Translations under genes and position numbers: made by a program
The notes under the pieces: generated by a model
Database searches by the model: none
Seen by the model: the letters and a program-made list of their open reading frames with translations, nothing else
What the model was told of the DNA's origin: nothing
Shown: positions 4,715-29,781 of the stretch, one piece after another
How positions within the stretch are numbered: the first letter of the stretch is position 1
Layout: the number at the start of each line of letters is the position of its first letter
IMG/VR virus record: IMGVR_UViG_3300030333_001304
Location: 1 to 35,618 of that record
Reading direction: 5' to 3' (one strand)
Length of the DNA: 35,618 nucleotides
DNA from: a virus

Positions 4715-5097
4715 TGGAGTGGAAGTTTCCTATTAGCCCAGTGGCAGCAAGTAGACCCCGTGTGTCAAAGCACGGGGCTTACTTCACTGGTGCTTACAAA
4801 GAATACCGTAAGGTCATGCTGGATTTAGTTCCTGAAATCTTAGGAGAATTTGAACCACTAACATATCCACTCAGTGTAGACTTGGAGTTGTATGTTAAGA
4901 GACCAAAGACTACTAAGCTTGAAGCTCCGAGAGCAGATATAGATAACTATCTCAAAGCAATATTCGATAGCATGAACGGTTTCTTGTGGGAAGACGACAC
5001 ACAAATACGCCAAATATATGCTACTAAACAATGGGCTAAGCCTGGCGAAGATGGTTACTTTGTTATAGGAGTAAATGAATATGAATATTATAATTGA
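4714..5097 (+). CDS. RusA-family Holliday junction resolvase
   Basis: This 127-residue protein carries the RusA signature: D75 and D77 in RADIDNYLKAIFDSMNG, K81, and D94/D95 in WEDDTQIRQ. These correspond to the metal-binding Asp residues and the catalytic Lys of E. coli RusA (D70, D72, K76, D91). It should resolve branched DNA during replication and packaging. It occupies the locus where T7 has endonuclease I (gp3), which belongs to a different fold, so this looks like a functional replacement. The start overlaps the SSB stop by one base. Confidence 0.87.
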   Translation: MEWKFPISPVAASRPRVSKHGAYFTGAYKEYRKVMLDLVPEILGEFEPLTYPLSVDLELYVKRPKTTKLEAPRADIDNYLKAIFDSMNGFLWEDDTQIRQIYATKQWAKPGEDGYFVIGVNEYEYYN

Positions 5098-5136
5098 TGA
5101 CAATAGTGTAGTTGTTATTGATACTGGGGGAGATTA

Positions 5137-5415
5137 ATGAATAAAGAATATAGATTAATTAAGATACGGTGGATGGATATCATTAGACCTGATGCAACAT
5201 GGATGTTCCCAGAAGAATTAAAAACTCTCGAGCCTGCTAAGATTACTACAGTAGGTTGGATAGTAGATGAATCTTCTGAGCAGATCACTATAGCAAGTTC
5301 ATTAGGAGATGATAGACAATTGGGAGATATCAACTGTATACCTAAGTCTGTTGTCCAGACTATAGAAGATCTAGGAGAAACAAATGAAAACACAATTGAA
5401 ATACCTATTATTTAG
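5137..5415 (+). CDS. small protein of unknown function
   Basis: This 92-residue protein has GGGGGAG just upstream of its ATG. It is mostly beta-like, with KIRWMDIIRPDATWMF at the start and ITTVGWIVDESSEQITIASS in the middle. This suggests a small barrel or beta-sandwich domain of the kind seen in many phage early regions. There is no membrane segment. Its last 32 bases overlap the next gene, a lipoprotein. It is the first of three small genes between the RusA resolvase and the primase-helicase, where T7 carries its gp3.5 lysozyme. Confidence 0.72.
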   Translation: MNKEYRLIKIRWMDIIRPDATWMFPEELKTLEPAKITTVGWIVDESSEQITIASSLGDDRQLGDINCIPKSVVQTIEDLGETNENTIEIPII

Positions 5416-11103: not shown

Positions 11104-11851
11104 CTTAGCTATTATAGATGGGGATATTATAGCATATAGGGCTGCATTCTGGGCTGATGTTGAGGGTATTGAAGAACTAGAGTCCCGTCTACAGCAAGAT
11201 ATAGACAATTGGACACCTTCAGATTGCTCTGAGGTTTTAGTTGCCTTGTCTTGTAAGAGAAAGAATAACTTTAGAAAGGATTTCTGGAGTAGTTACAAGG
11301 AACATAGGAACAGTGTCTCATCTCCTGAGTCTTTAGGCTATTGTAAGGAGTTGTTATGGGACATGTTTGATAGTATCGAAGAGCCTAGACTAGAAGCAGA
11401 CGATCTCATGGGTATTTATATATCTAAAGGAGATGCTATAGGTATAACTATAGATAAAGATTTAAGAACTATACCTGGATATCATTGGAATCCAGATAAA
11501 GAAAAGAATCCTGTGCATGTTACTGAAGAGGAGGCAGATTTCTTCTTCCATCAACAGTGGATGCAAGGTGATAGTACTGACGGGATCCCAGGCTTGTGGC
11601 GTGTGGGTCCAAAGAAGGCTATTAAGTTTATAAATAGTATTATAGAAGAAGATGGTGATGTTATTGAAGCTATCTTTAATGAATACGACACAGAAAAGCG
11701 TCCTAACGAGCTAGAAATGGACACTTATGACTTTGCTTTGTCTATGGCAAGGTGTGTTCGTATCTTAAGAGACGGTGAATACGACTTTGAAACCAAAGAA
11801 ATTAAATTATGGGAACCCAAAGTTGGGTATAGCGATAGTAAGGAGACATGA
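11090..11851 (+). CDS. T7 gp6-like 5'-3' exonuclease (FEN family)
   Basis: This 253-residue protein shows the flap-endonuclease/5'-exonuclease acidic sites: D10/D12 (IIDGDIIAYR), E102/D104/D105 (RLEADDLMG), D122/D124 (ITIDKDLRTIPG) and D161/D164 (GDSTDGIPG). The last runs into the helix-hairpin-helix WRVGPKKAI. In T7, gp6 removes RNA primers and degrades host DNA to recycle nucleotides, which fits the neighbouring dNMP kinase and reductase. I choose the ATG at 11090 because AGAGGAGG at 11076-11083 lies 6 bases upstream. Earlier in-frame ATGs at 11069, 11072 and 11084 precede or touch that site. Confidence 0.9.
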   Translation: MTIPNLAIIDGDIIAYRAAFWADVEGIEELESRLQQDIDNWTPSDCSEVLVALSCKRKNNFRKDFWSSYKEHRNSVSSPESLGYCKELLWDMFDSIEEPRLEADDLMGIYISKGDAIGITIDKDLRTIPGYHWNPDKEKNPVHVTEEEADFFFHQQWMQGDSTDGIPGLWRVGPKKAIKFINSIIEEDGDVIEAIFNEYDTEKRPNELEMDTYDFALSMARCVRILRDGEYDFETKEIKLWEPKVGYSDSKET

Positions 11852-13752
11852 TGGATCAGTTTCAAGAGTTTATAACCACCAAAAACTATTGTAGGTGGCT
11901 TGAAAAAGAGAATAGAAGAGAAACTTGGCAAGAATGTGTAGATCGTTATTACGATTACATGATAAGTAGATTTCCTGTGCTTCAAGAAGAGCATAGTGAG
12001 GTTATGACAGAACTACGAGAAGCTACATATAATAGAGAAGTCTTCCCGTCAATGAGAGCGTTGATGACAGCTGGTCCAGCTGCAGATGTAGATGATACTT
12101 GTATGTATAACTGTTCTTATCTTGCTATTAATAGTATAAGGTCTTTCTCAGACGTACTTTACATCCTGTGCTGCGGTACAGGTGTAGGGTTTTCCTGTGA
12201 AAGAGAAGAAGTAGATCAATTACCTACAGTCCCAACCTTAGTTCGGGATGAAGATACTGTAATTACAGTGCCTGATTCTCGTAAAGGTTGGGCTGATTCC
12301 CTTAGAGACTTATTAGATTATCTTTATAAAGGTATTCATCCCACTTGGGATATGTCTCAGGTTAGAGGTAAGGGAGAAAGACTTAAGACATTTGGAGGTA
12401 GGGCTTCAGGTCCAGAACCATTAGAGCGTTTGTTTAAATTTATTGTAAACATCTTCAGAAATGCTGAAGGACGTAAGCTTACCTCTTTAAATGTTCATGA
12501 TATCATCTGTATGATTGGTGAGATTGTTATTGTTGGTGGTGTTAGGCGCTCCGCTTTAATCTCTCTGTCTGATTTAGATGATAGGGATATGGCAATGGCT
12601 AAGTCTGGACCATGGTGGGAGAATTCTGGTCAAAGATCTCTTGCTAATAACTCAGCAGTTTATGATTCCTATCCTGGGATGAGTAGATTCATGGAAGAGT
12701 GGTGTAATATATACAACTCACATTCAGGTGAGCGTGGTATTTGTAACAGAGAAGCTATGAATACTCTTGCTTTGAAGTCTGGACGGGCTTCTGCTAAGTT
12801 TGGAACCAATCCATGCAGTGAAATTATTCTCAGACCTAAACAATTCTGTAATTTAACTGAAGTTGTTATCAGATCTTACGATGATATAGCTACATTGCGG
12901 CACAAGGTGAGGCTTGCTGCAGTACTAGGTACTATACAGTCAGCTTGCACTAAGTTTTCATACTTAGATCCTGAATGGAAAGCTAACTGTGAAGAAGAAA
13001 GATTATTAGGCGTATCCTTTACTGGGATATATGATAATACTTTTATGTCTACATGTAGTGAAGAACTCAGTAAAGGTTTAGAATTATTAAAGAACGAAGT
13101 TAAGGAAGTTAACAAGGAGTTTGCGGACTATCTTGATATCAATCCTTCTCTAGCAACTACATGCTGTAAACCTAGCGGTACTACATCATGTGTTGCTGGG
13201 ACTTCGTCAGGTATTCATCCAAGATTTTCTCCCTATTATATTAGAAGGGTGAGGATAGATAACAAGAATCCTATGTGTGAGTTTATGATAGCTGAAGGTT
13301 TCCCTCACGAACCCTGTTCAATGAGACCTGACAGTACTGAGATATTCTCATTCCCTATCAAATCACCTGAAGGTTCTTTAACATACGAAAATTATTCACC
13401 AATTAAACATTTAGATCTTTGGTTATTATATCAAGAAATGTGGTGTGAACATAAACCATCAGTAACTATTAACTATACTGATGATTCTTTCCTAGCTATA
13501 GGACAATGGGTTCACGATAATTGGGATAAAGTTTCAGGTATTTCATTCTTACCTAAGGATGACCACATCTATGAGCAAGCTCCCTTTGAATCCGTAGATG
13601 AAGAAACATATATAAGTCTTCTTGAGTCAATGCCTGTTGATGTTGATTGGAAAAGACTTTCATTGTACGAACTAGAAGATACATCCTCTAGTTCACATTC
13701 GTTAGCATGTCATGGGGGCGCATGTGAAGTAGTAGATATATTGGAGAATTAA
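11851..13752 (+). CDS. nrdJ: adenosylcobalamin-dependent (class II, monomeric) ribonucleotide reductase
   Basis: This 633-residue enzyme would reduce ribonucleotides to deoxyribonucleotides with coenzyme B12. It matches the Lactobacillus leichmannii monomeric type (739 residues). The radical Cys is C322 in NPCSEI with E324, and the substrate-reducing pair is C88 (YNCSY) and C333 (FCNLTEV). The C322-C333 spacing of 11 equals C408-C419 of the reference enzyme. The C-terminal thiol pair C620/C625 (CHGGAC) keeps the CX4C spacing. CGTGVGFSCERE is also typical. The ATG at 11851 is 5 bases from AAGGAG; an ATG at 11848 is too close. No small-subunit gene is seen, as expected for class II. Confidence 0.92.
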   Translation: MDQFQEFITTKNYCRWLEKENRRETWQECVDRYYDYMISRFPVLQEEHSEVMTELREATYNREVFPSMRALMTAGPAADVDDTCMYNCSYLAINSIRSFSDVLYILCCGTGVGFSCEREEVDQLPTVPTLVRDEDTVITVPDSRKGWADSLRDLLDYLYKGIHPTWDMSQVRGKGERLKTFGGRASGPEPLERLFKFIVNIFRNAEGRKLTSLNVHDIICMIGEIVIVGGVRRSALISLSDLDDRDMAMAKSGPWWENSGQRSLANNSAVYDSYPGMSRFMEEWCNIYNSHSGERGICNREAMNTLALKSGRASAKFGTNPCSEIILRPKQFCNLTEVVIRSYDDIATLRHKVRLAAVLGTIQSACTKFSYLDPEWKANCEEERLLGVSFTGIYDNTFMSTCSEELSKGLELLKNEVKEVNKEFADYLDINPSLATTCCKPSGTTSCVAGTSSGIHPRFSPYYIRRVRIDNKNPMCEFMIAEGFPHEPCSMRPDSTEIFSFPIKSPEGSLTYENYSPIKHLDLWLLYQEMWCEHKPSVTINYTDDSFLAIGQWVHDNWDKVSGISFLPKDDHIYEQAPFESVDEETYISLLESMPVDVDWKRLSLYELEDTSSSSHSLACHGGACEVVDILEN

Positions 13753-15359: not shown

Positions 15360-15719
15360 ATGAGAAACATAAGATGGGAACTAGAGCATGGTGTTCTACA
15401 CTTCGGTGGTGGAAGTGTGCAGGTGCCCGATAACTCCGAAGCTATGATGGCTATGATGCGTGAGCAAGATGCTCGTAATGCAGAGTTACAAGCTCAGCAT
15501 CATGAGCGTATGATTGCTATGCAAGAACGCCAGGCGGAGATCGAAAGGGCGAATGTATTGGCACTACAACGAGAAGAAGATGAGCTTAAACTTGAAGCTC
15601 AACGCATGGAAGATGCAGCTCAAGGTGAGTCACTGGCTCAGGCTGTTGATCAGGAACAAGACTATGATCAGATCATTACTGGCTTCTATGGTTCCTTAGC
15701 AGGAGAGAGACCTGAATGA
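15360..15719 (+). CDS. coiled-coil protein preceding the portal
   Basis: This 119-residue protein has AAGGAG directly before its ATG. A short beta-like start (MRNIRWELEHGVLHFGGGS) is followed by a Met/Gln/Glu-rich coiled coil at about residues 28-85 (DARNAELQAQHHERMIAMQE) and an acidic end. Its last codons overlap the portal ATG (ATGA, 15716-15719). Position and composition suggest a virion-assembly factor that acts with the portal, comparable to the small proteins that precede T7 gene 8. No specific family is recognised. Confidence 0.65.
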   Translation: MRNIRWELEHGVLHFGGGSVQVPDNSEAMMAMMREQDARNAELQAQHHERMIAMQERQAEIERANVLALQREEDELKLEAQRMEDAAQGESLAQAVDQEQDYDQIITGFYGSLAGERPE

Positions 15720-17362
15720 AGGAAGCAACAATAGCAGAACGGTTTAATAAGCTAGAATCAAAACGTACAGCTAAGCTGGAACGATCTAGATACTGTGCAT
15801 CTTTATCTGTACCTTCTCTCTTACCGCCTAGCGGGTGGACAGAAGAGTCACAGCTCCCCCAGCCATTTAGTTCTGTCACTGCACGAGGTGTAACAGCTAT
15901 GGCTAGCCGTATGCTCAGTGCTTTACTACCTTTGAATGATATGCCATTCTTTAAGTTTGAAATGAATACTGGAATGGAACCTGATGAAGATATTAGAGTA
16001 TACTTAGAGGCTTTAAGTTATCAAGTATATAATAAATTGTCTTCTAAAAACCTAAGAGAAACTTTGTATCAAGTATTACAACACCTTATTGTTGTTGGTG
16101 ATATACTTTTAATTATGGAAGATGACTTCTCATACAGACTAATTAGATTAGATCAGTTTGTAGTTAGACGTGATGTCAACGGAGATGCTAAGGAAATTAT
16201 TCATTTAGATTTCGTGGCTAATGACAACGACAGTGAATATGTAGACGCATTCTATAATGATAGTACTGAATTTAATCGTACTGGATATGAAACAATTTAC
16301 TGTAGGTGTTGGCATGATGAAGATGCAGGCGTATGGAAATGCAGGAAAGAAGATTCAGATGGCAACCTTATTATGGAGGGTGAATGGAAGGTTAGTCCTT
16401 ACGTCTGTCTCCGATGGTCGGGTGTAGCAGGAGAAAACTATGGTCGCTCACACTGTGAGGATTTAATTGGTGATATCAGATCCTTAGAAGCCTTTACGGA
16501 AGGTCTGATTTACGGTACTGCAGCGTCCTCATCCTTTTGGGTAGGCATAGATCCTGCAGGTATTACTGAGATAGATGATATTCATGATGCACACAAGGGA
16601 GCATTTGTTCCAGCTAGACAACAAGATGTATTTACTATATCACCGGCAGCTACAATGACACCTCAGTTACAAGCTACTCAATCTGGTGTTGAGAATATGC
16701 GTAGAGAAATTGGTCAAGCATTCTTGCTCAACTCAGCTAGTATTCCAGAGGGTGATCGGGTTACAGCTACTGCAGTTAGGGCTATTGGTCAAGAGTTAGA
16801 GAACGTACTAGGTGGAGCGTTTAGTTCTATTGCACGCAATCTAATGAAACCTCTTGTATCTAGAGCAGTATATCTCATGTTAGACAATCAAGAGATAGAT
16901 CCTCGTATGGAAGCAGAGTTTACTGAAGATGGTGAACTTACTGTAGAAATTGTGACTGGTCTTCAAGCTTTGAGTCGGGACAGTGATTTACAAAAGTTAA
17001 TGCAGATGGGTGAGATGGTACGTAACCTACCTGAACCAGCAATAGCAAACTTTAGATGGGAATCCTATGGTCGTGCTCTTATTTCATCATTAGGATTTAA
17101 TCCTGACAACTGGGTTAAGTCTGAAGAGCAGATTATGCAAGAGCAGCAGGCTATGCAACAAGAGCAAATGGCTATGCAACAGCAAATGCAAGCTCAAGCT
17201 GGTGTTCAAGAGATGATGCAACAAGCAGCGGCACAAGACATACAACAAAACGGTGGAGCTGGTATTAATCAACTCATGGGTCAGATGGATCAAGGTAGTC
17301 CAATGCCTGAGGGTGCTGACGAGATTCCACCTGAGATTGCTGCAATGATGGGAGGCAGGTAA
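15716..17362 (+). CDS. head-tail connector (portal), T7 gp8-like
   Basis: This 548-residue protein (T7 gp8 is 536) forms the dodecameric vertex through which DNA is packaged and ejected. The N-terminus shows the family pattern: a charged helix, then SLSVPSLLPPSGW, then PFSSVTARGVTAMASRMLSA and LLPLNDMPFF. The central part has SPYVCLRWSGVAGENYGRSH and SASIPEGDRVTATAVRAIGQ, both typical of T7-like portals. The C-terminus is very rich in Met and Gln (roughly residues 465-520). AGGAG sits 10 bases before the ATG. The stop overlaps the next start by TAATG. Confidence 0.92.
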   Translation: MKEATIAERFNKLESKRTAKLERSRYCASLSVPSLLPPSGWTEESQLPQPFSSVTARGVTAMASRMLSALLPLNDMPFFKFEMNTGMEPDEDIRVYLEALSYQVYNKLSSKNLRETLYQVLQHLIVVGDILLIMEDDFSYRLIRLDQFVVRRDVNGDAKEIIHLDFVANDNDSEYVDAFYNDSTEFNRTGYETIYCRCWHDEDAGVWKCRKEDSDGNLIMEGEWKVSPYVCLRWSGVAGENYGRSHCEDLIGDIRSLEAFTEGLIYGTAASSSFWVGIDPAGITEIDDIHDAHKGAFVPARQQDVFTISPAATMTPQLQATQSGVENMRREIGQAFLLNSASIPEGDRVTATAVRAIGQELENVLGGAFSSIARNLMKPLVSRAVYLMLDNQEIDPRMEAEFTEDGELTVEIVTGLQALSRDSDLQKLMQMGEMVRNLPEPAIANFRWESYGRALISSLGFNPDNWVKSEEQIMQEQQAMQQEQMAMQQQMQAQAGVQEMMQQAAAQDIQQNGGAGINQLMGQMDQGSPMPEGADEIPPEIAAMMGGR

Positions 17363-17952
17363 TGGCATATGCAGAGGTAATAAAAGATGATATTGGAACA
17401 GGAGGCTCTGGCGGCAAAAGCGGAATTGAAGGTATATCAGGTACTGGTGGTTATCAGGACGGTGGCGGTACTGATTCTGGTGCCGGTACTGATTTCACTT
17501 ATTATAACGTAACATCTGATACTACTATGGGTGGTAGTGGTTCTAATCCAGGGGCTAGTGATACTCCTGTACTAACACTTCCTGATACTGTTAGTGTTAG
17601 AGATAATAAAGGTTGTGTTGTTCAAATAACTATAGGTACAGCTTCCAGTGCAACAGGTAGTGCTGTTCCTTTGTTTGCTGAATTTTCACATGATGGTACT
17701 AATTGGACTGAACACAATGGTACAGGTAGTGTTAACAATACTACAATAAATGCTTCACTACCTACAACTACTACAGGTACACATACCTACTGGCTTGATT
17801 TAAATAATTGTAACTTTCCTAGATTTAGGGTAGGTTTTAATAGCAACGGACAAAACTTAAACGGAATGGTATTTAACATGGCTGTTACATTCATTGATGA
17901 TTGGGTAGATCCTGCTAAATACAGAAAGTGGAACGCTTTACAAGGCGAATAG
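17362..17952 (+). CDS. Gly-rich, beta-sandwich-like putative capsid decoration protein
   Basis: This 196-residue protein begins with about 45 residues of Gly/Ser/Thr-rich linker (GGSGGKSGIEGISGTGGYQ), followed by a beta-rich domain. Its C-terminal domain is paralogous to the next protein: FSHDGTNWTEHNGTG here matches ISADGTNFSQHEGTG there, and YWLDLNNCNFPRFRVGFNSN matches FMVDLTSYAVPYYRIGINSA. It has no signal or membrane segment. Lying between portal and scaffold with spike-base-like genes, it is probably a minor head or surface protein; that role is inferred. It begins within the portal stop codon (TAATG). Confidence 0.62.
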   Translation: MAYAEVIKDDIGTGGSGGKSGIEGISGTGGYQDGGGTDSGAGTDFTYYNVTSDTTMGGSGSNPGASDTPVLTLPDTVSVRDNKGCVVQITIGTASSATGSAVPLFAEFSHDGTNWTEHNGTGSVNNTTINASLPTTTTGTHTYWLDLNNCNFPRFRVGFNSNGQNLNGMVFNMAVTFIDDWVDPAKYRKWNALQGE

Positions 17953-17961
17953 GAGTAACTT

Positions 17962-18414
17962 ATGGCGACTGCAACAACTATTAATAAGACGTGGACTGTT
18001 ACTAATACGTCTAATAATAAATATGCGTATCGTATATTAGATAACAATGATACTTTAACATCAACTACTAAGACACACAAGCTAGTAACCCCAGCCATTG
18101 ACAGTACAAGTAAACTGAGTGGCAATAAAGTATTGATAATTGTACATGTAACTGCAGGTGGTGATAATGTAGCTGCAGATTGTTTTTTAGAAATTAGTGC
18201 CGATGGTACTAACTTCAGTCAACACGAAGGAACTGGTCAAGATTACCTTGAAGTTTCTAGTGACATCCAACCAGATGTTACAGGTCAAAAAGTATTCATG
18301 GTTGATCTAACATCTTATGCCGTTCCTTACTATAGGATAGGTATTAACTCTGCCGGTTTAGATTTAGGAACCGCATTAAAAGTAAAATTAGGGTATGCTT
18401 ACCCAATAACCTAG
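17962..18414 (+). CDS. beta-rich putative virion protein, paralogue of the preceding protein
   Basis: This 150-residue protein starts after a good GGAG site. It is Thr/Ser/Asn-rich and beta-like throughout, with no signal peptide. It shares two sequence blocks with its upstream neighbour: DGTNF..HEGTG near residues 83-94, and VDL....PYYRIGINSAGLDL near 115-135. It lacks the Gly-rich N-terminal linker of that neighbour. The pair looks like a local duplication of one structural domain. Position next to spike-base-like genes suggests a head fibre, spike or decoration role, which is not proven. Confidence 0.62.
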   Translation: MATATTINKTWTVTNTSNNKYAYRILDNNDTLTSTTKTHKLVTPAIDSTSKLSGNKVLIIVHVTAGGDNVAADCFLEISADGTNFSQHEGTGQDYLEVSSDIQPDVTGQKVFMVDLTSYAVPYYRIGINSAGLDLGTALKVKLGYAYPIT

Positions 18415-18427
18415 GAGAAAAATAGAG

Positions 18428-18691
18428 ATGAAATATACCAAAGCCGGTACTGTGACAACTCACGACACAAACGATCAGAGTATTGATACAAAATATGGTA
18501 CACCTATCGATGCTATTTATGTTGGTGTGGGTGGTAATGTTAATCTAAAACTAAGTAAAGATACTACAGCTGTATTATTTAAAAATATGATAGCTGGTAC
18601 AATTTATCCTTTGTCTGCTAAGAATATTCTTAGTACTAGCACAACGGCTACAGATATTGTAGCTTTAGATACGGGAAGTAAGTATGACTAA
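18428..18691 (+). CDS. head spike base-like protein (RCAP_rcc01079-like), putative
   Basis: This 87-residue protein resembles the small beta-rich family named for Rcc01079, the head-spike base of the Rhodobacter capsulatus gene transfer agent. It shows an opening HDTND, then PIDAIYVGVGGNVNLKLSKD, a FKNMIAGTIYPL core, and the closing STTATDIVALD. Proteins of this kind are usually about 80-110 residues. If right, it forms a trimeric base on the capsid to which fibres attach. The match is from recalled family patterns, not an alignment. Its final codons overlap the start of the next gene by 8 bases, and the two share both their ends. Confidence 0.6.
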   Translation: MKYTKAGTVTTHDTNDQSIDTKYGTPIDAIYVGVGGNVNLKLSKDTTAVLFKNMIAGTIYPLSAKNILSTSTTATDIVALDTGSKYD

Positions 18692-19661
18692 GTATACTAA
18701 AGCCTATTCTCTTACACCCCACGATACTAACGCAACTGATCCTAGACCAGATGCATATTATGTAGGTGATGGTAATTTTACAGACGAACACGATACAACC
18801 GATTTCTATTCTCCTAAAGTATGGTATAGAGGCGGAGAACAAACTAGACTAGGCGGTGCTGTTACTGGCTGGAGTAATAAAGTTAATAACAGAGAAAGTT
18901 CAATGACTGGCTCTAGTGTTGTCGATACAACTGGTGATGCCTCTACAAACTATATTGATTACGCTACTTTTAATGCTAATAATGATCACCTAAAGACTAC
19001 CGATACCGATACTAACTATGATATAGGTACAGGCGAGTTTGAGATGATGGCTGTTGTAAGGTTTGCGGATCATGGAAATAAATATCAACATATAGCAGCT
19101 AGAGATGCTGGCGGATCAAGTGAGAACTGGGGCTGGTTAAGAAGAGCTGATAATGCTAGCAGTGATCCTGGCAAGATTTCATTCTCTATTATCGGTTCTG
19201 ATCCTGTATCAGCTACTACGGCAGCATATGATACTTGGTATATATTAGGGGTATCTAGAGATAGTTCAAATGTGATACAGCTATATAGAGACGGTGCTAC
19301 AGATGGTGCTTCTGCTACTAACGCTCAAGATTTGAATAATGAAACAGGCGACCCTCTTGTTTTAGGAGCTAAGGATAACGGAAGTGGAACTTTAGTTCAA
19401 TCTCTTATGGGTGACATGGTTGAGTTTATTCTTTGGGAAACTAGCTTAAGCTCAGCTGAACGAGCTGCTGTTGTTGGTCATCTTCAAGATAGATACTTTA
19501 ATGATCAAAGAGGTAAGCTGGTAACATGTACAGATCCTAGTGATGCTGATACTTACGCAATTACCTATCCTCCAATTGGAAAAATTATTGATGACAGTCC
19601 TAAGTATATAAGAAACTCAGGTAAGCAAGCATCAGATATCGTAGGACTAAAAATAAAGTAG
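18684..19661 (+). CDS. spike base-like protein with inserted LamG (concanavalin A-like) domain
   Basis: This 325-residue protein begins like its upstream neighbour (KYTKAYSLTPHDTN against KYTKAGTVTTHDTN; PDAYYVGDGN against IDAIYVGVGG) and ends like it (YPPIGKIID...ASDIVGLKIK against IYPLSAKNI...ATDIVALD). Between these, at about residues 45-273, lies a LamG_3-type jellyroll: YATFNANNDHL, a VSRDSSNVIQLYRDG strand pair, and the typical end GDMVEFILWETSLSSAERAA. LamG folds often bind glycans, so a capsid-surface adhesin is a reasonable inference. The ATG overlaps the preceding gene by 8 bases. Confidence 0.7.
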   Translation: MTKYTKAYSLTPHDTNATDPRPDAYYVGDGNFTDEHDTTDFYSPKVWYRGGEQTRLGGAVTGWSNKVNNRESSMTGSSVVDTTGDASTNYIDYATFNANNDHLKTTDTDTNYDIGTGEFEMMAVVRFADHGNKYQHIAARDAGGSSENWGWLRRADNASSDPGKISFSIIGSDPVSATTAAYDTWYILGVSRDSSNVIQLYRDGATDGASATNAQDLNNETGDPLVLGAKDNGSGTLVQSLMGDMVEFILWETSLSSAERAAVVGHLQDRYFNDQRGKLVTCTDPSDADTYAITYPPIGKIIDDSPKYIRNSGKQASDIVGLKIK

Positions 19662-19947: not shown

Positions 19948-20928
19948 ATGGCAGAACAACCAAATTTAGATTATCAACAAGAAACAACATATAGTGCAGA
20001 GAATAGTACAACTCCTGGCGCAATGCCACAAGCAGATCCAACGGCTGAGCAAATGGCTCAGATTGCAGCGTCGCAAACAGCGATGCCGGAAGATGCGAAC
20101 GCAGTACGGGAACGTGCAGCATTCGAAACATACGTCCAAAATAGTGGAGATCAAATACCGCCTAACTTCAAGGACGCTGGGGCGTGGTTTGATTCACTCA
20201 AAGAAGCCCAGAAAAAATATACGCAAGGGCAACAAGAGATCGCAGAGCTAAAGAGAACGTATGCTGAAAACAATACACAGAATCCTAACTATGTTCCTCA
20301 ACAAGAAGCACCAGCTCCTGAACCTGTACAACCAACAGGTGAGGAACAACTACGGATCCCTTCTGTTGAGGAAGCTGCTCCTGAACAACCAACTAATAAA
20401 GAAATTAGTCAGGAGGATTGGGATAAGTGGGGTATGGAAGTTGCCATTAAGGGTGACTTGACTCCTGAAACACGTGCTGAAATTAAACAGTACGGTTTTA
20501 CTGATAAGATGGTTAACGATTTGTTAACAGCTCAGCAAGCTAAGATGAGAGAAGCATATTCTGATGCTACCGCAGTAGTTGGTGGTAAAGAAAAGCTTGA
20601 CTCTATCTTTGACTGGGCTGCTAAGAACTTATCTAAAGAAGAACAAGCACAAATTAATGTAGGTTTGTCAGGTCCTGCCTATGAAATTACATTAAGAGGA
20701 TTAGCTGATACATTTGAAAAAGCTAATCAATCAAAAAGAACTAATGAACCAGCACCTACACCAGGCTTAGAGCAAAGCTCTGTAGCTTATGATAGTAGTG
20801 TTGGTTATAAAACCAAGCGTGAGTTTTATGCTGATCGGAATAATCCAAGGTTTACTACAGACCAACGATTCCGACAAGCAGTAGAATCACGTATGCTTAA
20901 TACAGATTTTAATAATTTACCTGCCTAG
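19948..20928 (+). CDS. capsid assembly scaffolding protein, T7 gp9-like
   Basis: This 326-residue protein is acidic and low in complexity over its first 150 residues (Gln, Pro, Ala, Glu), followed by helical, charged sequence. The C-terminal end has YKTKREFYADRNNPRFTTDQ and FRQAVESRM, the pattern seen in scaffolds of T7-like phages. It would guide prohead assembly and then leave. Its place between portal and major capsid gene is the same as in T7 (gp8-gp9-gp10). The ATG is preceded by AAGGAG. Confidence 0.87.
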   Translation: MAEQPNLDYQQETTYSAENSTTPGAMPQADPTAEQMAQIAASQTAMPEDANAVRERAAFETYVQNSGDQIPPNFKDAGAWFDSLKEAQKKYTQGQQEIAELKRTYAENNTQNPNYVPQQEAPAPEPVQPTGEEQLRIPSVEEAAPEQPTNKEISQEDWDKWGMEVAIKGDLTPETRAEIKQYGFTDKMVNDLLTAQQAKMREAYSDATAVVGGKEKLDSIFDWAAKNLSKEEQAQINVGLSGPAYEITLRGLADTFEKANQSKRTNEPAPTPGLEQSSVAYDSSVGYKTKREFYADRNNPRFTTDQRFRQAVESRMLNTDFNNLPA

Positions 20929-21097: not shown

Positions 21098-22369
21098 ATG
21101 TCATACCCAAACTTAACAGCAGCACAACTTCCATATCGTGGTAGTATTGCTGAAACAGTTGGGACTAGCGGTGCTAACCCAACATACTCTGGTGGTGCAT
21201 GGAATGAAACAGCAGGTAGCGGTAAGCTATGGCTACCCATCTGGTCCGGTGAAGTAATTCACGCTTACGATCAGTATAACTCATTCGAACCTCTTGTCAC
21301 ATCGAAAACAATCGCAAGTGGCACAACAATGGAATTTCCAATTACTGGTACTGTAGGCTTAGAGCCAGCATGGGCAGCGGGTCAAGAACTAATTGGCGGT
21401 GCTGACAACAAGGCGACTACATTCACAGTCACATTGGACAAACGACCAATGGCAGCTCACTTTGAAACTGACAACATTGATATGATGTTGACTCAGTGGG
21501 AGTGGCGATCAGAATTGGCTCGTCAAGCAGGCATGACTCTGTCCAATACACGGGATAAACAGATCTTCTCATACCTAGTTCAAGCAGCTACTAACTCACA
21601 AATGGCGGAAGATGTACAAATCCGTGGTGACTTTGGTCTTGATGGTGTGATGTACAGTGGTGGAGTAGATTCTGTTGATGGTGCTACCATTCGATTTGCT
21701 TCATTAGGTAACACATCTGCATCAGCAGCCCTTCGTGCTGACGCTGCTCTCGGTGTTCTTGAATCAATCGAGAAGTTTGTAGTCCACCTACAAGAAAATG
21801 ACATCGATCATTCTCAAGTATACTGTGCTGTAACACCTCAAGCATTCATGGATATCCGTGCGCTTGGTGTTGCTCGTGACTACACTGACTTTGATGATGG
21901 TGGTACACGTCCATACTTCGGTGGTACAGCCGACATGGGTGGATTGGGAATGAGCCTTAACCAAGGCATGGGTCCAATCACAGCATCTCTCAACTACATG
22001 GGAGTTACTATCATTAAGTCCAATCACATCGTTCAAACTGACCTCAGTGGTGCAGATGGTACAGCCGATGCATTAGGTGAAGCTAAGTATAATCTTGACT
22101 TCCTAGCTGGGAAAGTTAAAGGCGTTATTTGGACACCAGAAGCAGTTGCAAGCTTGAAGCTTCAAGGCGTTAAGGTTGATAATGTTGAAGACGTTCGTCG
22201 AAATACACACTTTACAGTAGCATCCATGATGGGTGGTACTGGTGTACTTCGTCCAGAATGTGCAGCACTATTGACTGGTCTTGATACTTCAGCAGGACAA
22301 GTGGATAACCGCACAATGATTCGTGATGCGGCTTATCTAGACTACACACAAGAATACGCTAAAGGCTAA
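21098..22369 (+). CDS. major capsid protein, T7 gp10-like
   Basis: This 423-residue protein follows scaffold and precedes a terminator and tail tubular protein A, exactly as T7 gp10 does. It should have the HK97 fold. Supporting segments are the early helix/loop WSGEVIHAYDQYNSFEPLV, a P-domain-like ITASLNYMGVTIIKSNHI near residues 296-313, and the ending FTVASMMGGTGVLRPECAA typical of T7-like capsid proteins. Codons look more biased than in neighbouring genes, as expected for the most abundant virion protein. No sign of a gp10B-type frameshift product was seen at the end. Confidence 0.92.
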   Translation: MSYPNLTAAQLPYRGSIAETVGTSGANPTYSGGAWNETAGSGKLWLPIWSGEVIHAYDQYNSFEPLVTSKTIASGTTMEFPITGTVGLEPAWAAGQELIGGADNKATTFTVTLDKRPMAAHFETDNIDMMLTQWEWRSELARQAGMTLSNTRDKQIFSYLVQAATNSQMAEDVQIRGDFGLDGVMYSGGVDSVDGATIRFASLGNTSASAALRADAALGVLESIEKFVVHLQENDIDHSQVYCAVTPQAFMDIRALGVARDYTDFDDGGTRPYFGGTADMGGLGMSLNQGMGPITASLNYMGVTIIKSNHIVQTDLSGADGTADALGEAKYNLDFLAGKVKGVIWTPEAVASLKLQGVKVDNVEDVRRNTHFTVASMMGGTGVLRPECAALLTGLDTSAGQVDNRTMIRDAAYLDYTQEYAKG

Positions 22370-25692: not shown

Positions 25693-28600
25693 GTGGCATA
25701 CGACAATAACTCAAACCCTAGTGGGATTTTATGGGCACCCACTAAAACGATTTCTGATTGGACAGAAAGACCGGGTACATCATTACGTGAAACGCCATAC
25801 ACAAGTTTAACTTTAGATGCTAATGTTTCAGATCAAGATCAGATCGTAGTAGTACGCACATTCGATATCTCGTCTGTCACTCCTGCACCAGCTACGCCCT
25901 TTACTGGTGAACAAGTGTGGAAACTATGGACTTTGCCTAACTCAGATTCTTCAGGCAGTCCTATGTATCAGCTAACTGATGATAAAACCGTAGTCATGTC
26001 AGCTACTGCAGCTGATTATAAGATTACTATTGATGGTACAGAGTACACAACTCCAACATTTGACTATGCTACCCATGATACCTATGTTCTAAGACGAACC
26101 TACAGTAAAGAAGGATTTGTTACATGGACAGCAGGCAGTAGAATTACTTCAGCCCAATTAAACCACAGTATGCAGCAAGTAATTAACTTACTACAAGAAG
26201 GAATCATTCGTGATCTTAACCGTGGTAAGTTTGATCCGTTTATTGGTCAAGCTAATGGTGTAGCACAGCTAGATTCTGATGGTAAGATTCCTAACTCTTT
26301 AATCGGTGCTGCTACTCTAGGTATTAATTCTGAATTGGGGATTCAGGGTGATGGCACAACAAGTGACAAACTAAGGATTAAACTTAACGGATCATCTTTA
26401 GCTGCTACAAGTGATGGTTTAAGCGTATCTGTAGTTAATGATTTAACTACAGGCGGTACTACAGTAGCTTTGTCCGCAGAACAAGGTAAAATACTTAAGA
26501 CAAGTCTTGATACTTTAGGTACTGGGTTTGCTTATCAAGGAACATTTGATATTTCAGGAGGTGCTGACATTGATGCACCTGCGGGTGCAGCAGCTGGTTA
26601 TACTTATGATGTCATAGGTAGTGGTACTTATACAATGTCTAAACTTAATAACCTAAGTTTAACAGCAGGAGATATAATTAGATACGACGGCTCAGCTTGG
26701 GTAGAGGTAGCTCAAGCTAGTGTACTTAGAGCTGACGGTACTGTTGCTCTTGAATCAAGTGTAACATTAGATTTAGATGCAGGTACTTCTGTACTTGTAC
26801 CTAACGTTACTTATAGTACCAGTGTTGATGATACTAAGGCAGCTAATACGGCTTATGTAAAAGATGCTATAGAAGCAATCCAAGTCGAAACTCTTTCAGA
26901 TGTAGATTTTGGGGGTGGAACTCCCACTGATGGTAAAGTTATTAAGGCTGACGGTGATAATACGTGGTCTTTAAAGGATGGTGTGTTTGATGAGAACGTA
27001 GGGTTAGATGCACTTAAACTACAGAACCTTTCTGATGTAGCGTCTCCTACTGATGGGCAGTACTTGAAATATACTACCTCAGGTGGTTGGGCTACTGCAC
27101 CTGTATCAATAACTAACCTAGTTGTAGGTGTAAACTCTAGTGCTAACTTTAGTGGTGGTGCAGATGCTTCACAGTATGTACAAGATGCATGGATTGATTC
27201 AAACCTAGGACATATAGGGGTACCTACAGCTTCTACTCTTAAAGTACTAGAGTTTAACGGTGCTAAGCATTTACTAGGAACACCAACAACTTTTGCATTA
27301 CCAGCAGCAGCTAATAGGCTCTATACCACACACAGACAAGACGTTACTTATCGTAACGGTCATCTACAGTGGCAAGGTAGAGACAACGATGGTACTACAT
27401 GGGCAAACAATACAGAAACTTCCATATATCCTTACATGATCGCACCTACTGATACAACAGGATCAGCAGCAGGTGCTGAAGCATCTGGAGTTGACTTGCA
27501 AGACATAGCAGGAACAGTAGATAATGACAATGCTGGTGGATTTAAGACTAATGTTAAGATTACTGCTGCATGTAGACCAGGAGAAACAATTCTTACCTTA
27601 ACAGAGACGGATGATTTCTTTGAAGGAGATGTTATTAGGATTGTCAAGGTAGATGCTACACATACAGAATATATTAGAGAAGATAGTTCTGGTGGCGCTA
27701 ATAGAATGTGGTTTACAATGACTAATAGAATTAAGAAAGTACTTAATGGAACTCAAATAGAACTTGAAACACCAGTACCTTCACATATGACTGCTAATAA
27801 GTTCAGGATTTATAAAAATATCTATCATACTGGTGGCAATGATCAAAATCCTAATGTTTGTTCACAACCTTCACGCCTCAGTTTTGAGAATATGAAGTTT
27901 GAAAACCTTTGTAGTGCATATTATGAGCTAGCCGCAAACAAAATTGTACTAGTAGCTGATGCTGAAGATGATTTTACTGTAGAGTTTCCAGTTGCACATG
28001 GAGTACATACAGATCAGGAGGTACTTGCTAGTTTTGATAGTGTTAGTTTACAAGGATCTACTGATAACGCTTTTGTTTGGGGAGATATCAACAGACAGAC
28101 TAAAGGAACAGATGCTGTCGGTACTTATGGTACAGGTAAGCTTGTGAAAAAAGACGTAGGCAGCCATATGACGGGAGCTCACGTAGTCAGTACGACTAAA
28201 CTTGCAGGTAAGTTAGCTAATTCCCAGAATCCAACATCTTCCGCAGCCGGTAATGGAATAGGCGGTGCTTATTCTGTTTTAGGTATAGGTTATGAAAGAT
28301 GTATGCGTATAAATGATGGTCAGGATATTGTATTTAAGAACTGTACCTTTGATGGATGGGCAGAAGCTGTAATCTTAGATGGATGTTACAATGTTCGGTT
28401 TGAAGACTGTACTTTCAACTCACCACTATGGACAGGCACGGGTCCTAACAGTACAGGTATTAAACTAATTGGCTGTACAAATGTTACCGTTAAGGATTGT
28501 ACTTTCAATGGCTGTCATTATGGAATTAAAAATATAGACACAGCTTTAACCTGTTACGATATTACGATTAAGAACTGTAAGTTCCATAATATATGTTCAG

Positions 28601-29781
28601 CTGTATACTTTACAGGCTGTACTAAGAACGTTAGAATCCAAGACTGTGATATGGTATCTAGAGCATGGAACGTAAGACGACTTGCATGTAGCCGTGGTGT
28701 AGATAACTCAAGCTATGTTATTCATGTTGAGGGTTGGGATATCAAAGTAACTGGATGTACTATGGACGGATCTCAGAACTATCTACATGGTGGTAATGTT
28801 GCAGAATCATGGGATCCAGATAAGTATGGACTATCAGCTGCCTCCGGTGGCTTTAATGTTTCAGGTGGATTTGATGGTGGAAACTTTGGCTCCTCTGACG
28901 CAAACCAGAAAGTAAGTATTTCCAAGGGATGTAAGTTTGTCATCACAGGCAAAGCTATGGAGCCAGGCAATAGTGAGTATAGGGGTGGCTTTATACAGGA
29001 TTTAGTATTTTCTAATAATTCTTGCACAAGTTGGGAACACGGTATTCTGGTTGAGTGTATGGGCGGATATATAAGTAGGCGATGTCCTATTAACGGAATC
29101 TCTATTACAGATAATTACTTTATATTTAATAGGTATGGTTGTTTAATTAGTTATGGCTTTGATGCTTGTAATGGTGTATTTGATACAGATATTGTTAACA
29201 ATACATTTAGAACTGATTATACTTATGTAACTAATATTCCTAGGGGTCTTTCAACCCAACGAGATGATTTCCATTATAGAGTAGGAGAAACTACAGGAGG
29301 TGGATATGGCTATGGTCAAGGTAATGATACCACGCACTATGGTAATAACATGGATTACCTAGGTTCAATCTTTGGTATACGAACAGGAGCTCTTAAAGAT
29401 CCTTACAGTGGAGCTGATCCTCCAACTACCCTTAGAATGAATAAAGTTAGAGTAAGCGATAATTATATAGATTTTATAGCCAAATATGGAGCTCAGCAAA
29501 ATAAATTCCATCAATGGGGTATGAGTTTTGGTACAGGGCATCAGGCATATGGAGGAACACGGCACGTAAATATTTCTAATAACTCACAGAGGGGCGGATA
29601 TGCCCTGCACACTGTCAGCACTGATGCTGGAAATGTTAAACCAATTATGCTAAAATGTTTATACACTGATAATACTCTTCGTAATGGTTCGTATGGACAT
29701 ACTTATAGTATGCATAGATATGGTAAGTATGATTATACAGGGCATAACAAGAGAAGAGACGACTTCTCACTGGAAACATAA
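25693..29781 (+). CDS. tail fibre/tailspike with T7 gp17-type N-terminus and beta-helix
   Basis: This 1362-residue protein starts at GTG 25693, after AAGGAG. Residues 1-165 resemble the T7 gp17 N-terminal tail-attachment domain, ending with SRITSAQLNHSMQQVINLLQ. A linker and repeat region follows, with GKIPNSLIG, AANTAYVKDAIEAI and two LSDV modules ending in GKVIKADGDNTW and GQYLKYTTSGGW. From about residue 870 to beyond 1000 a Cys-rich parallel beta-helix is evident (FKNCTFDGWAEAV, FEDCTFN, VKDCTFNGCHYG, IKNCKFHN, IQDCDM). Such helices bind or cleave surface polysaccharide. It probably determines the host; enzymatic activity is not shown. Confidence 0.9.
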   Translation: MAYDNNSNPSGILWAPTKTISDWTERPGTSLRETPYTSLTLDANVSDQDQIVVVRTFDISSVTPAPATPFTGEQVWKLWTLPNSDSSGSPMYQLTDDKTVVMSATAADYKITIDGTEYTTPTFDYATHDTYVLRRTYSKEGFVTWTAGSRITSAQLNHSMQQVINLLQEGIIRDLNRGKFDPFIGQANGVAQLDSDGKIPNSLIGAATLGINSELGIQGDGTTSDKLRIKLNGSSLAATSDGLSVSVVNDLTTGGTTVALSAEQGKILKTSLDTLGTGFAYQGTFDISGGADIDAPAGAAAGYTYDVIGSGTYTMSKLNNLSLTAGDIIRYDGSAWVEVAQASVLRADGTVALESSVTLDLDAGTSVLVPNVTYSTSVDDTKAANTAYVKDAIEAIQVETLSDVDFGGGTPTDGKVIKADGDNTWSLKDGVFDENVGLDALKLQNLSDVASPTDGQYLKYTTSGGWATAPVSITNLVVGVNSSANFSGGADASQYVQDAWIDSNLGHIGVPTASTLKVLEFNGAKHLLGTPTTFALPAAANRLYTTHRQDVTYRNGHLQWQGRDNDGTTWANNTETSIYPYMIAPTDTTGSAAGAEASGVDLQDIAGTVDNDNAGGFKTNVKITAACRPGETILTLTETDDFFEGDVIRIVKVDATHTEYIREDSSGGANRMWFTMTNRIKKVLNGTQIELETPVPSHMTANKFRIYKNIYHTGGNDQNPNVCSQPSRLSFENMKFENLCSAYYELAANKIVLVADAEDDFTVEFPVAHGVHTDQEVLASFDSVSLQGSTDNAFVWGDINRQTKGTDAVGTYGTGKLVKKDVGSHMTGAHVVSTTKLAGKLANSQNPTSSAAGNGIGGAYSVLGIGYERCMRINDGQDIVFKNCTFDGWAEAVILDGCYNVRFEDCTFNSPLWTGTGPNSTGIKLIGCTNVTVKDCTFNGCHYGIKNIDTALTCYDITIKNCKFHNICSAVYFTGCTKNVRIQDCDMVSRAWNVRRLACSRGVDNSSYVIHVEGWDIKVTGCTMDGSQNYLHGGNVAESWDPDKYGLSAASGGFNVSGGFDGGNFGSSDANQKVSISKGCKFVITGKAMEPGNSEYRGGFIQDLVFSNNSCTSWEHGILVECMGGYISRRCPINGISITDNYFIFNRYGCLISYGFDACNGVFDTDIVNNTFRTDYTYVTNIPRGLSTQRDDFHYRVGETTGGGYGYGQGNDTTHYGNNMDYLGSIFGIRTGALKDPYSGADPPTTLRMNKVRVSDNYIDFIAKYGAQQNKFHQWGMSFGTGHQAYGGTRHVNISNNSQRGGYALHTVSTDAGNVKPIMLKCLYTDNTLRNGSYGHTYSMHRYGKYDYTGHNKRRDDFSLET

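Follow-up and report, generated by a model that had tools for sequence, protein, structure and literature searches.

When the determinants of host recognition in tailed phages are sought, attention usually goes to the tail proteins alone. Capsid-borne glycan binding is nevertheless already known from RcGTA, where a pentamer of base proteins sits on each of eleven capsid vertices with its N-termini contacting the capsid, and where one flexible fibre per base pentamer, held through an Ile/Leu-Gly repeat at the fibre N-terminus, binds the host capsule (PMC7296036). Both solved members of this base family, those of RcGTA (C5 capsid map) and of the phage Carin1 (mature capsid), are located on the capsid.

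Here we describe a locus in which a base of this family is followed by a second copy interrupted by a lectin-like domain. The window, by which we mean the whole stretch of DNA that was analysed, comprises the 35,618 bases of the IMG/VR virus record IMGVR_UViG_3300030333_001304 (positions 1 to 35,618). The second copy is most likely an adhesin of the capsid vertex, with a conserved anchor to the capsid and a LamG cassette that is exchanged. As a whole, the locus is probably best explained by two paralogous head spike bases, one of them carrying a nested LamG domain, that would make an early glycan contact from the head.

Gene order and the compact spike base

The order of genes in the window is that of a T7-like podovirus, with portal, scaffold-type, major capsid, tail tube, nozzle, tail fibre and terminase genes, the terminase being called by eye from its translation. 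The early region also encodes a 634-aa protein (11848-13752) that resembles a ribonucleotide reductase, judged by eye from the motifs NPCSEI and CKPSGTTS. Five genes lie between those for the portal and the scaffold, and the two base genes are among them. The relevant features are as follows.

15716..17362, + strand, portal protein (PF12236, E=6e-51)
17362..17952, + strand, 196-aa neighbour, related by alignment to the 150-aa neighbour
17962..18414, + strand, 150-aa neighbour (p150), same family as the 196-aa protein by alignment
18428..18691, + strand, compact head spike base, 87 aa
18684..18691, + strand, overlap between the base genes (8 nt), seen in the sequence
18684..19661, + strand, 325-aa split spike base that contains the LamG domain, with at least six distinct relatives
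18684..18779, + strand, N-terminal half of the split base, residues 1-32 (counterpart of the capsid arm, and strand 2)
18780..19505, + strand, LamG/ConA-like insert that is exchanged as a cassette, residues 33-274
19506..19658, + strand, C-terminal half of the split base, residues 275-325 (strand 3 onward)
19948..20928, + strand, scaffold-type head assembly protein (phrog_1052, E=1e-16)
21098..22369, + strand, major capsid protein (phrog_267, E=7e-30; PF21703, E=2e-8)
25693-29781, tail fibre with a beta-helix and fibre repeats

The open reading frames of 87 and 325 aa and their overlap are as the sequence-only reading had described them. A Shine-Dalgarno-like GGGAAG is present at 18673-18678, inside the 87-aa gene and upstream of the 325-aa start, and together with the overlap it suggests that the two base genes are translated in a coupled manner; in relatives, too, the pair either overlaps or is almost contiguous. 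The 196-aa neighbour gave no family match in the family-library search and is likely another head-surface protein. The p150 family is a second domain-gaining gene of the block, growing in relatives from 150 to 327-419 aa (L002:3490-4620, L006:2867-4126, L007:3546-4529) as modules like TITLIDAAGT...GTLTLTQATKGTxGNT are added or inserted.

The 87-aa protein belongs to the NCBIfam family NF048002, "spike base protein, RCAP_Rcc01079 family" (52.5 bits against a cut-off of 28, E=4.5e-14). A profile made from 17 bases matched exactly two solved structures, those of RcGTA (6tb9, 2.4e-10) and Carin1 (8cjz, 8.8e-7). The AF2 model of the protein (pLDDT 83.3) has the single jellyroll of the solved bases, superposing on 6tb9 and 8cjz with Z-scores of 10.9 and 10.8 (rmsd 1.3-1.5 over 72 residues), against 4.6 for the match ranked after these. 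Sequence family, PDB profile match and fold thus agree on the spike-base identity first proposed for this protein. Three longer viral predictions in BFVD match the base fold (A0A516M714, 257 aa; A0A516MNI2, 282 aa; A0A516M5G1, 175 aa) and might represent further bases with a fusion or an insertion. L002 (4633-4974) and L025 (747-1094), two relatives whose split bases differ widely, share compact bases of 113-115 aa in which some 25 additional residues precede the IYVG motif.

The split base and its insert

The earlier claim that the 325-aa protein shares both its start and its end with the 87-aa protein is borne out by profile comparison, BLASTP between the two finding the shared start only (46% over 46 columns, E=7e-5). 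In the long protein and its orthologues, residues 1-34 plus 275-325 aligned to the base profile with an hhalign E-value of 4e-15 and a score of 79, and each end was also recognized by itself (N part, 6e-11; C part, 2e-7). With the relatives of the window removed, the ends still matched a profile of nine distant bases (E=2.6e-11, score 60.6). The best score among 100 column shuffles against the full base profile was 16.2, which rules out chance similarity as the source of scores of 79 and 61. Both halves of the base profile are present and in order, and the middle of the protein did not match it. NF048002 itself aligns to residues 289-322 at the expected model positions 51-84, at 14.6 bits against the cut-off of 28 (E=0.029), and the protein is therefore a split paralogue and not a standard member of that family. 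The same arrangement is found in a 329-aa member from L025/L026/L028 that has 31% identity and was outside the profile training: base matches at residues 12-44 and 291-327 flank a LamG profile match at 1e-43.

The insert starts just past a GxG(G)N turn, between the predicted base strands 29-34 and 36-42, i.e., in the beta2-beta3 hairpin. Insertion of LamG into this hairpin is supported by the profile alignment and the Pfam matches of the orthologues, and the hairpin would be the surface loop of the sequence-only reading. The AF2 model of the 325-aa protein, made with 6 homologues, was poor (pLDDT 39.9) and was left unused for the ends, and it is therefore from sequence that we infer the packing of the two ends as one domain around the insert. 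The locus points to one spike-base loop that tolerates an insert of 240 residues.

That the middle is of the LamG type is clearest in the orthologues, where the corresponding region exceeds the Pfam cut-off for Laminin_G_3 (PF13385) in L009 (residues 109-255, E=1.3e-8) and L025 (118-265, E=4e-12). This agrees with the central LamG domain of the sequence-only reading, but not with its size, which was given as about 230 residues and is about 242 (33-274). In the window protein, library matches of the middle fell below threshold (Pentaxin PF00354, E=0.0014; phrog_4390, E=4e-5). As supporting evidence only, residues ~29-272 of the low-confidence model gave fold matches mainly to ConA/LamG lectin domains, with Z-scores up to 13.1, including the lectin domain of a trypanosomal sialidase (13.1), PAPP-A, pentraxins, pneumococcal NanB and the tailspike of cyanopodophage Pan3. 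When the long protein was compared with PDB sequences by phmmer and profiles, no LamG match was obtained, and a FANCC match at E=0.098 was taken as chance. The ligand of a LamG domain can be a protein, calcium or nothing at all; for the domain described here, polysaccharide binding is the function we would predict.

Relatives, origin and exchange of the insert

Compact and split bases adjoin each other in distinct relatives (L001, L002, L003, L009, L004-L006 and L025/L026/L028), in the conserved order portal, p150 family, base, base with LamG, 78-aa protein, scaffold and capsid. L075 has a partial split base followed by a 78-aa-type gene and the scaffold and capsid genes, with its compact base past the capsid gene. 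In both L075 (2989-3243) and L034 (2683-2937), the compact base lies between the capsid and tail-tube genes, away from the split base. A search of all open reading frames of 214 loci from IMG/VR, GTDB genomes and named phages, which hold 156 distinct compact bases, found the split base in this family only, and a scan of GTDB species genomes for the split base found none. The distinct split-base genes known number about seven, all metagenomic.

In a tree of 62 bases (89 columns), the split ends formed one clade with support of 100/92, which is most simply read as a single origin of the split base. The split ends and the compact bases of the same phages grouped together, with support of 92/78, apart from 45 other bases. 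This grouping supports the proposed duplication of a spike-base gene and is consistent with a duplication within this lineage, with 89 columns leaving the exact parent unplaced. The split base could instead be a captured foreign base, independent of the compact base beside it. The position of the compact base in L075 and L034 fits such a capture, as does the weak grouping of the split ends with the bases of these two loci (91/63) and not with the adjacent ones. The separation of all bases of these phages, split or compact, from the 45 others stands against it, though weakly given the 89 columns, and we regard capture as somewhat unlikely. Two different compact spike bases occur in tandem in another phage (L020:4650-4922 and 4923-5189), and base duplication without insertion therefore also occurs. 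An apparent co-variation of the N-terminal arms (HDT/HNT/HDS) within genomes was dropped, as it fails in L007 and L024.

The ends and the insert of the split base have different nearest relatives. Window and L003 are 100% identical in the portal and in p150 and 63% identical in the split base, while the window and L001 are 84% identical in the split base (86% in LamG) and 61%, 27% and 54% identical in portal, p150 and capsid, respectively. Divided into N end, LamG and C end, the identity of the window protein is 84/57/86% to L003 and 66/83/40% to L002. Informative DNA sites were split between L003 and L001 in a ratio of 32:19 in the ends and 28:194 in LamG (Fisher p=9e-13), and between L003 and L002 in a ratio of 70:16 in the ends and 54:188 in LamG (p=6e-22). 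Synonymous divergence behaves in the same way, with dS in ends/LamG of 0.57/1.08 to L003 and 1.23/0.33 to L002, and omega is 0.14-0.42 in both ends and LamG, which indicates purifying selection. Because dS also flips between the ends and LamG, the pattern is one of intragenic recombination and not of selection on the protein sequence, and the flip of nearest neighbours and dS between segments likewise rules out fast evolution as its cause. In these alignments, the recombination breakpoints lie inside the split-base gene, the base ends of the window following L003 and the LamG domain following L001/L002. A recognition module anchored to the capsid would be expected to show this combination of a conserved frame and an exchanged lectin-like domain. 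Mosaicism extends to other genes of these phages, and exchange alone is therefore no proof of receptor binding.

Location, role and comparison with known systems

Two paralogous bases, one with a nested lectin, would work at the head as follows. Both base versions, made from coupled, overlapping genes in the head-gene block, would attach to the 5-fold capsid vertices in the manner of RcGTA, through N-terminal arms that are similar in the two. There, the compact and split bases would be either mixed in one pentamer or placed on different vertices, with the LamG domains displayed outward. The LamG domains would make the first, reversible and multivalent contact with a glycan of the host surface, ahead of engagement by the tail, and the nested lectin would take the place of the separate fibre, present in a single copy, that is plugged into the base of relatives by a (GL)n peptide. 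As a tentative extension, the pentamers might be mixed, with the number of lectins per vertex set by the ratio of the two gene products, and LamG might be the exchangeable host-range module of the capsid, parallel to the tail fibres.

The long protein might also be a capsid decoration that stabilizes or shields the head, with the LamG domain having no role as a receptor-binding domain. LamG folds are versatile and this one is without a known ligand, and the beta-helix of the tail fibre in the window could do all the recognition. Such a role is improbable, however, since LamG is swapped as a cassette on a conserved frame, as is typical of recognition modules, since it also occurs in separate head fibres of relatives, and since the fibres of RcGTA bind the capsule (PMC7296036). 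It is quite improbable that the protein sits on the tail or neck with its base-like fold as a generic jellyroll platform, the labels that suggest this ("tail fiber protein" for the base family phrog_12296 in PHROGs and a tail fibre annotation of the P8625 base) carrying little weight without experiment against two solved members on the capsid, a gene between portal and scaffold, and a tail fibre encoded elsewhere in the window.

With two spike bases at the head as the preferred reading, the phage head, besides the tail, probably helps to recognize host surfaces. The locus is a sequence-level case of a recognition-type domain in a protein whose solved relatives sit on the capsid vertex, and of this domain alone being exchanged between phages. 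It offers a case in which head-borne recognition by a T7-like phage can be tested, and an alternative to the GTA-type design of base plus fibre, with a nested domain in place of a plugged-in peptide.

To our knowledge, no ConA-like or LamG lectin domain has been known as an insert in a viral capsid-spike base, and the literature searched, which excluded most subscription journals, described neither a base with a nested lectin nor its single origin or swapping within the gene. RcGTA (base pentamer Rcc01079 and fibre Rcc01080, 6tb9) has a base of the same family by profile and fold and a glycan-binding head appendage, such as is predicted here; it differs in having a single, compact base, with the fibre as a separate protein that is present in one copy and anchored by an I/L-G star peptide, while the window has the lectin nested in a second base. 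The T7-like Cobetia podophage Carin1 (base gp40 and gp39, 8cjz) shares the base family and fold but has a separate star-type fibre, gp39 (MLGLGLGIA), and a base gene between those for the cement protein and the connector, without a split base. Among compact-base loci, 41 of 152 have an RcGTA-star-like N-terminus next door, compared to 7.4% of control open reading frames; none of the head and tail genes in the window, which may be incomplete, had a start-proximal star peptide.

In the Verrucomicrobia phage P8625, the base gp23 is directly followed by gp24 with Laminin_G_3 domains (E=7e-20), but there the LamG is part of a fibre of its own, whose N-terminus is of the star type (MIGLGLDLSL), and not of the base. 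With LamG in gp24 and no star-type gene found in the window, LamG is a recurrent head-fibre domain of this system that is here found inside a base copy. The middle of the split base resembles the ConA-like/LamG lectins in fold (the sialidase lectin domain, pentraxins, NanB and the Pan3 tailspike, at Z-scores of 10-13 for the low-confidence model) and through the Pfam matches of its orthologues. What is new compared with these systems is the nesting of the lectin in a base copy, instead of its placement in a separate fibre, together with its exchange as a cassette.
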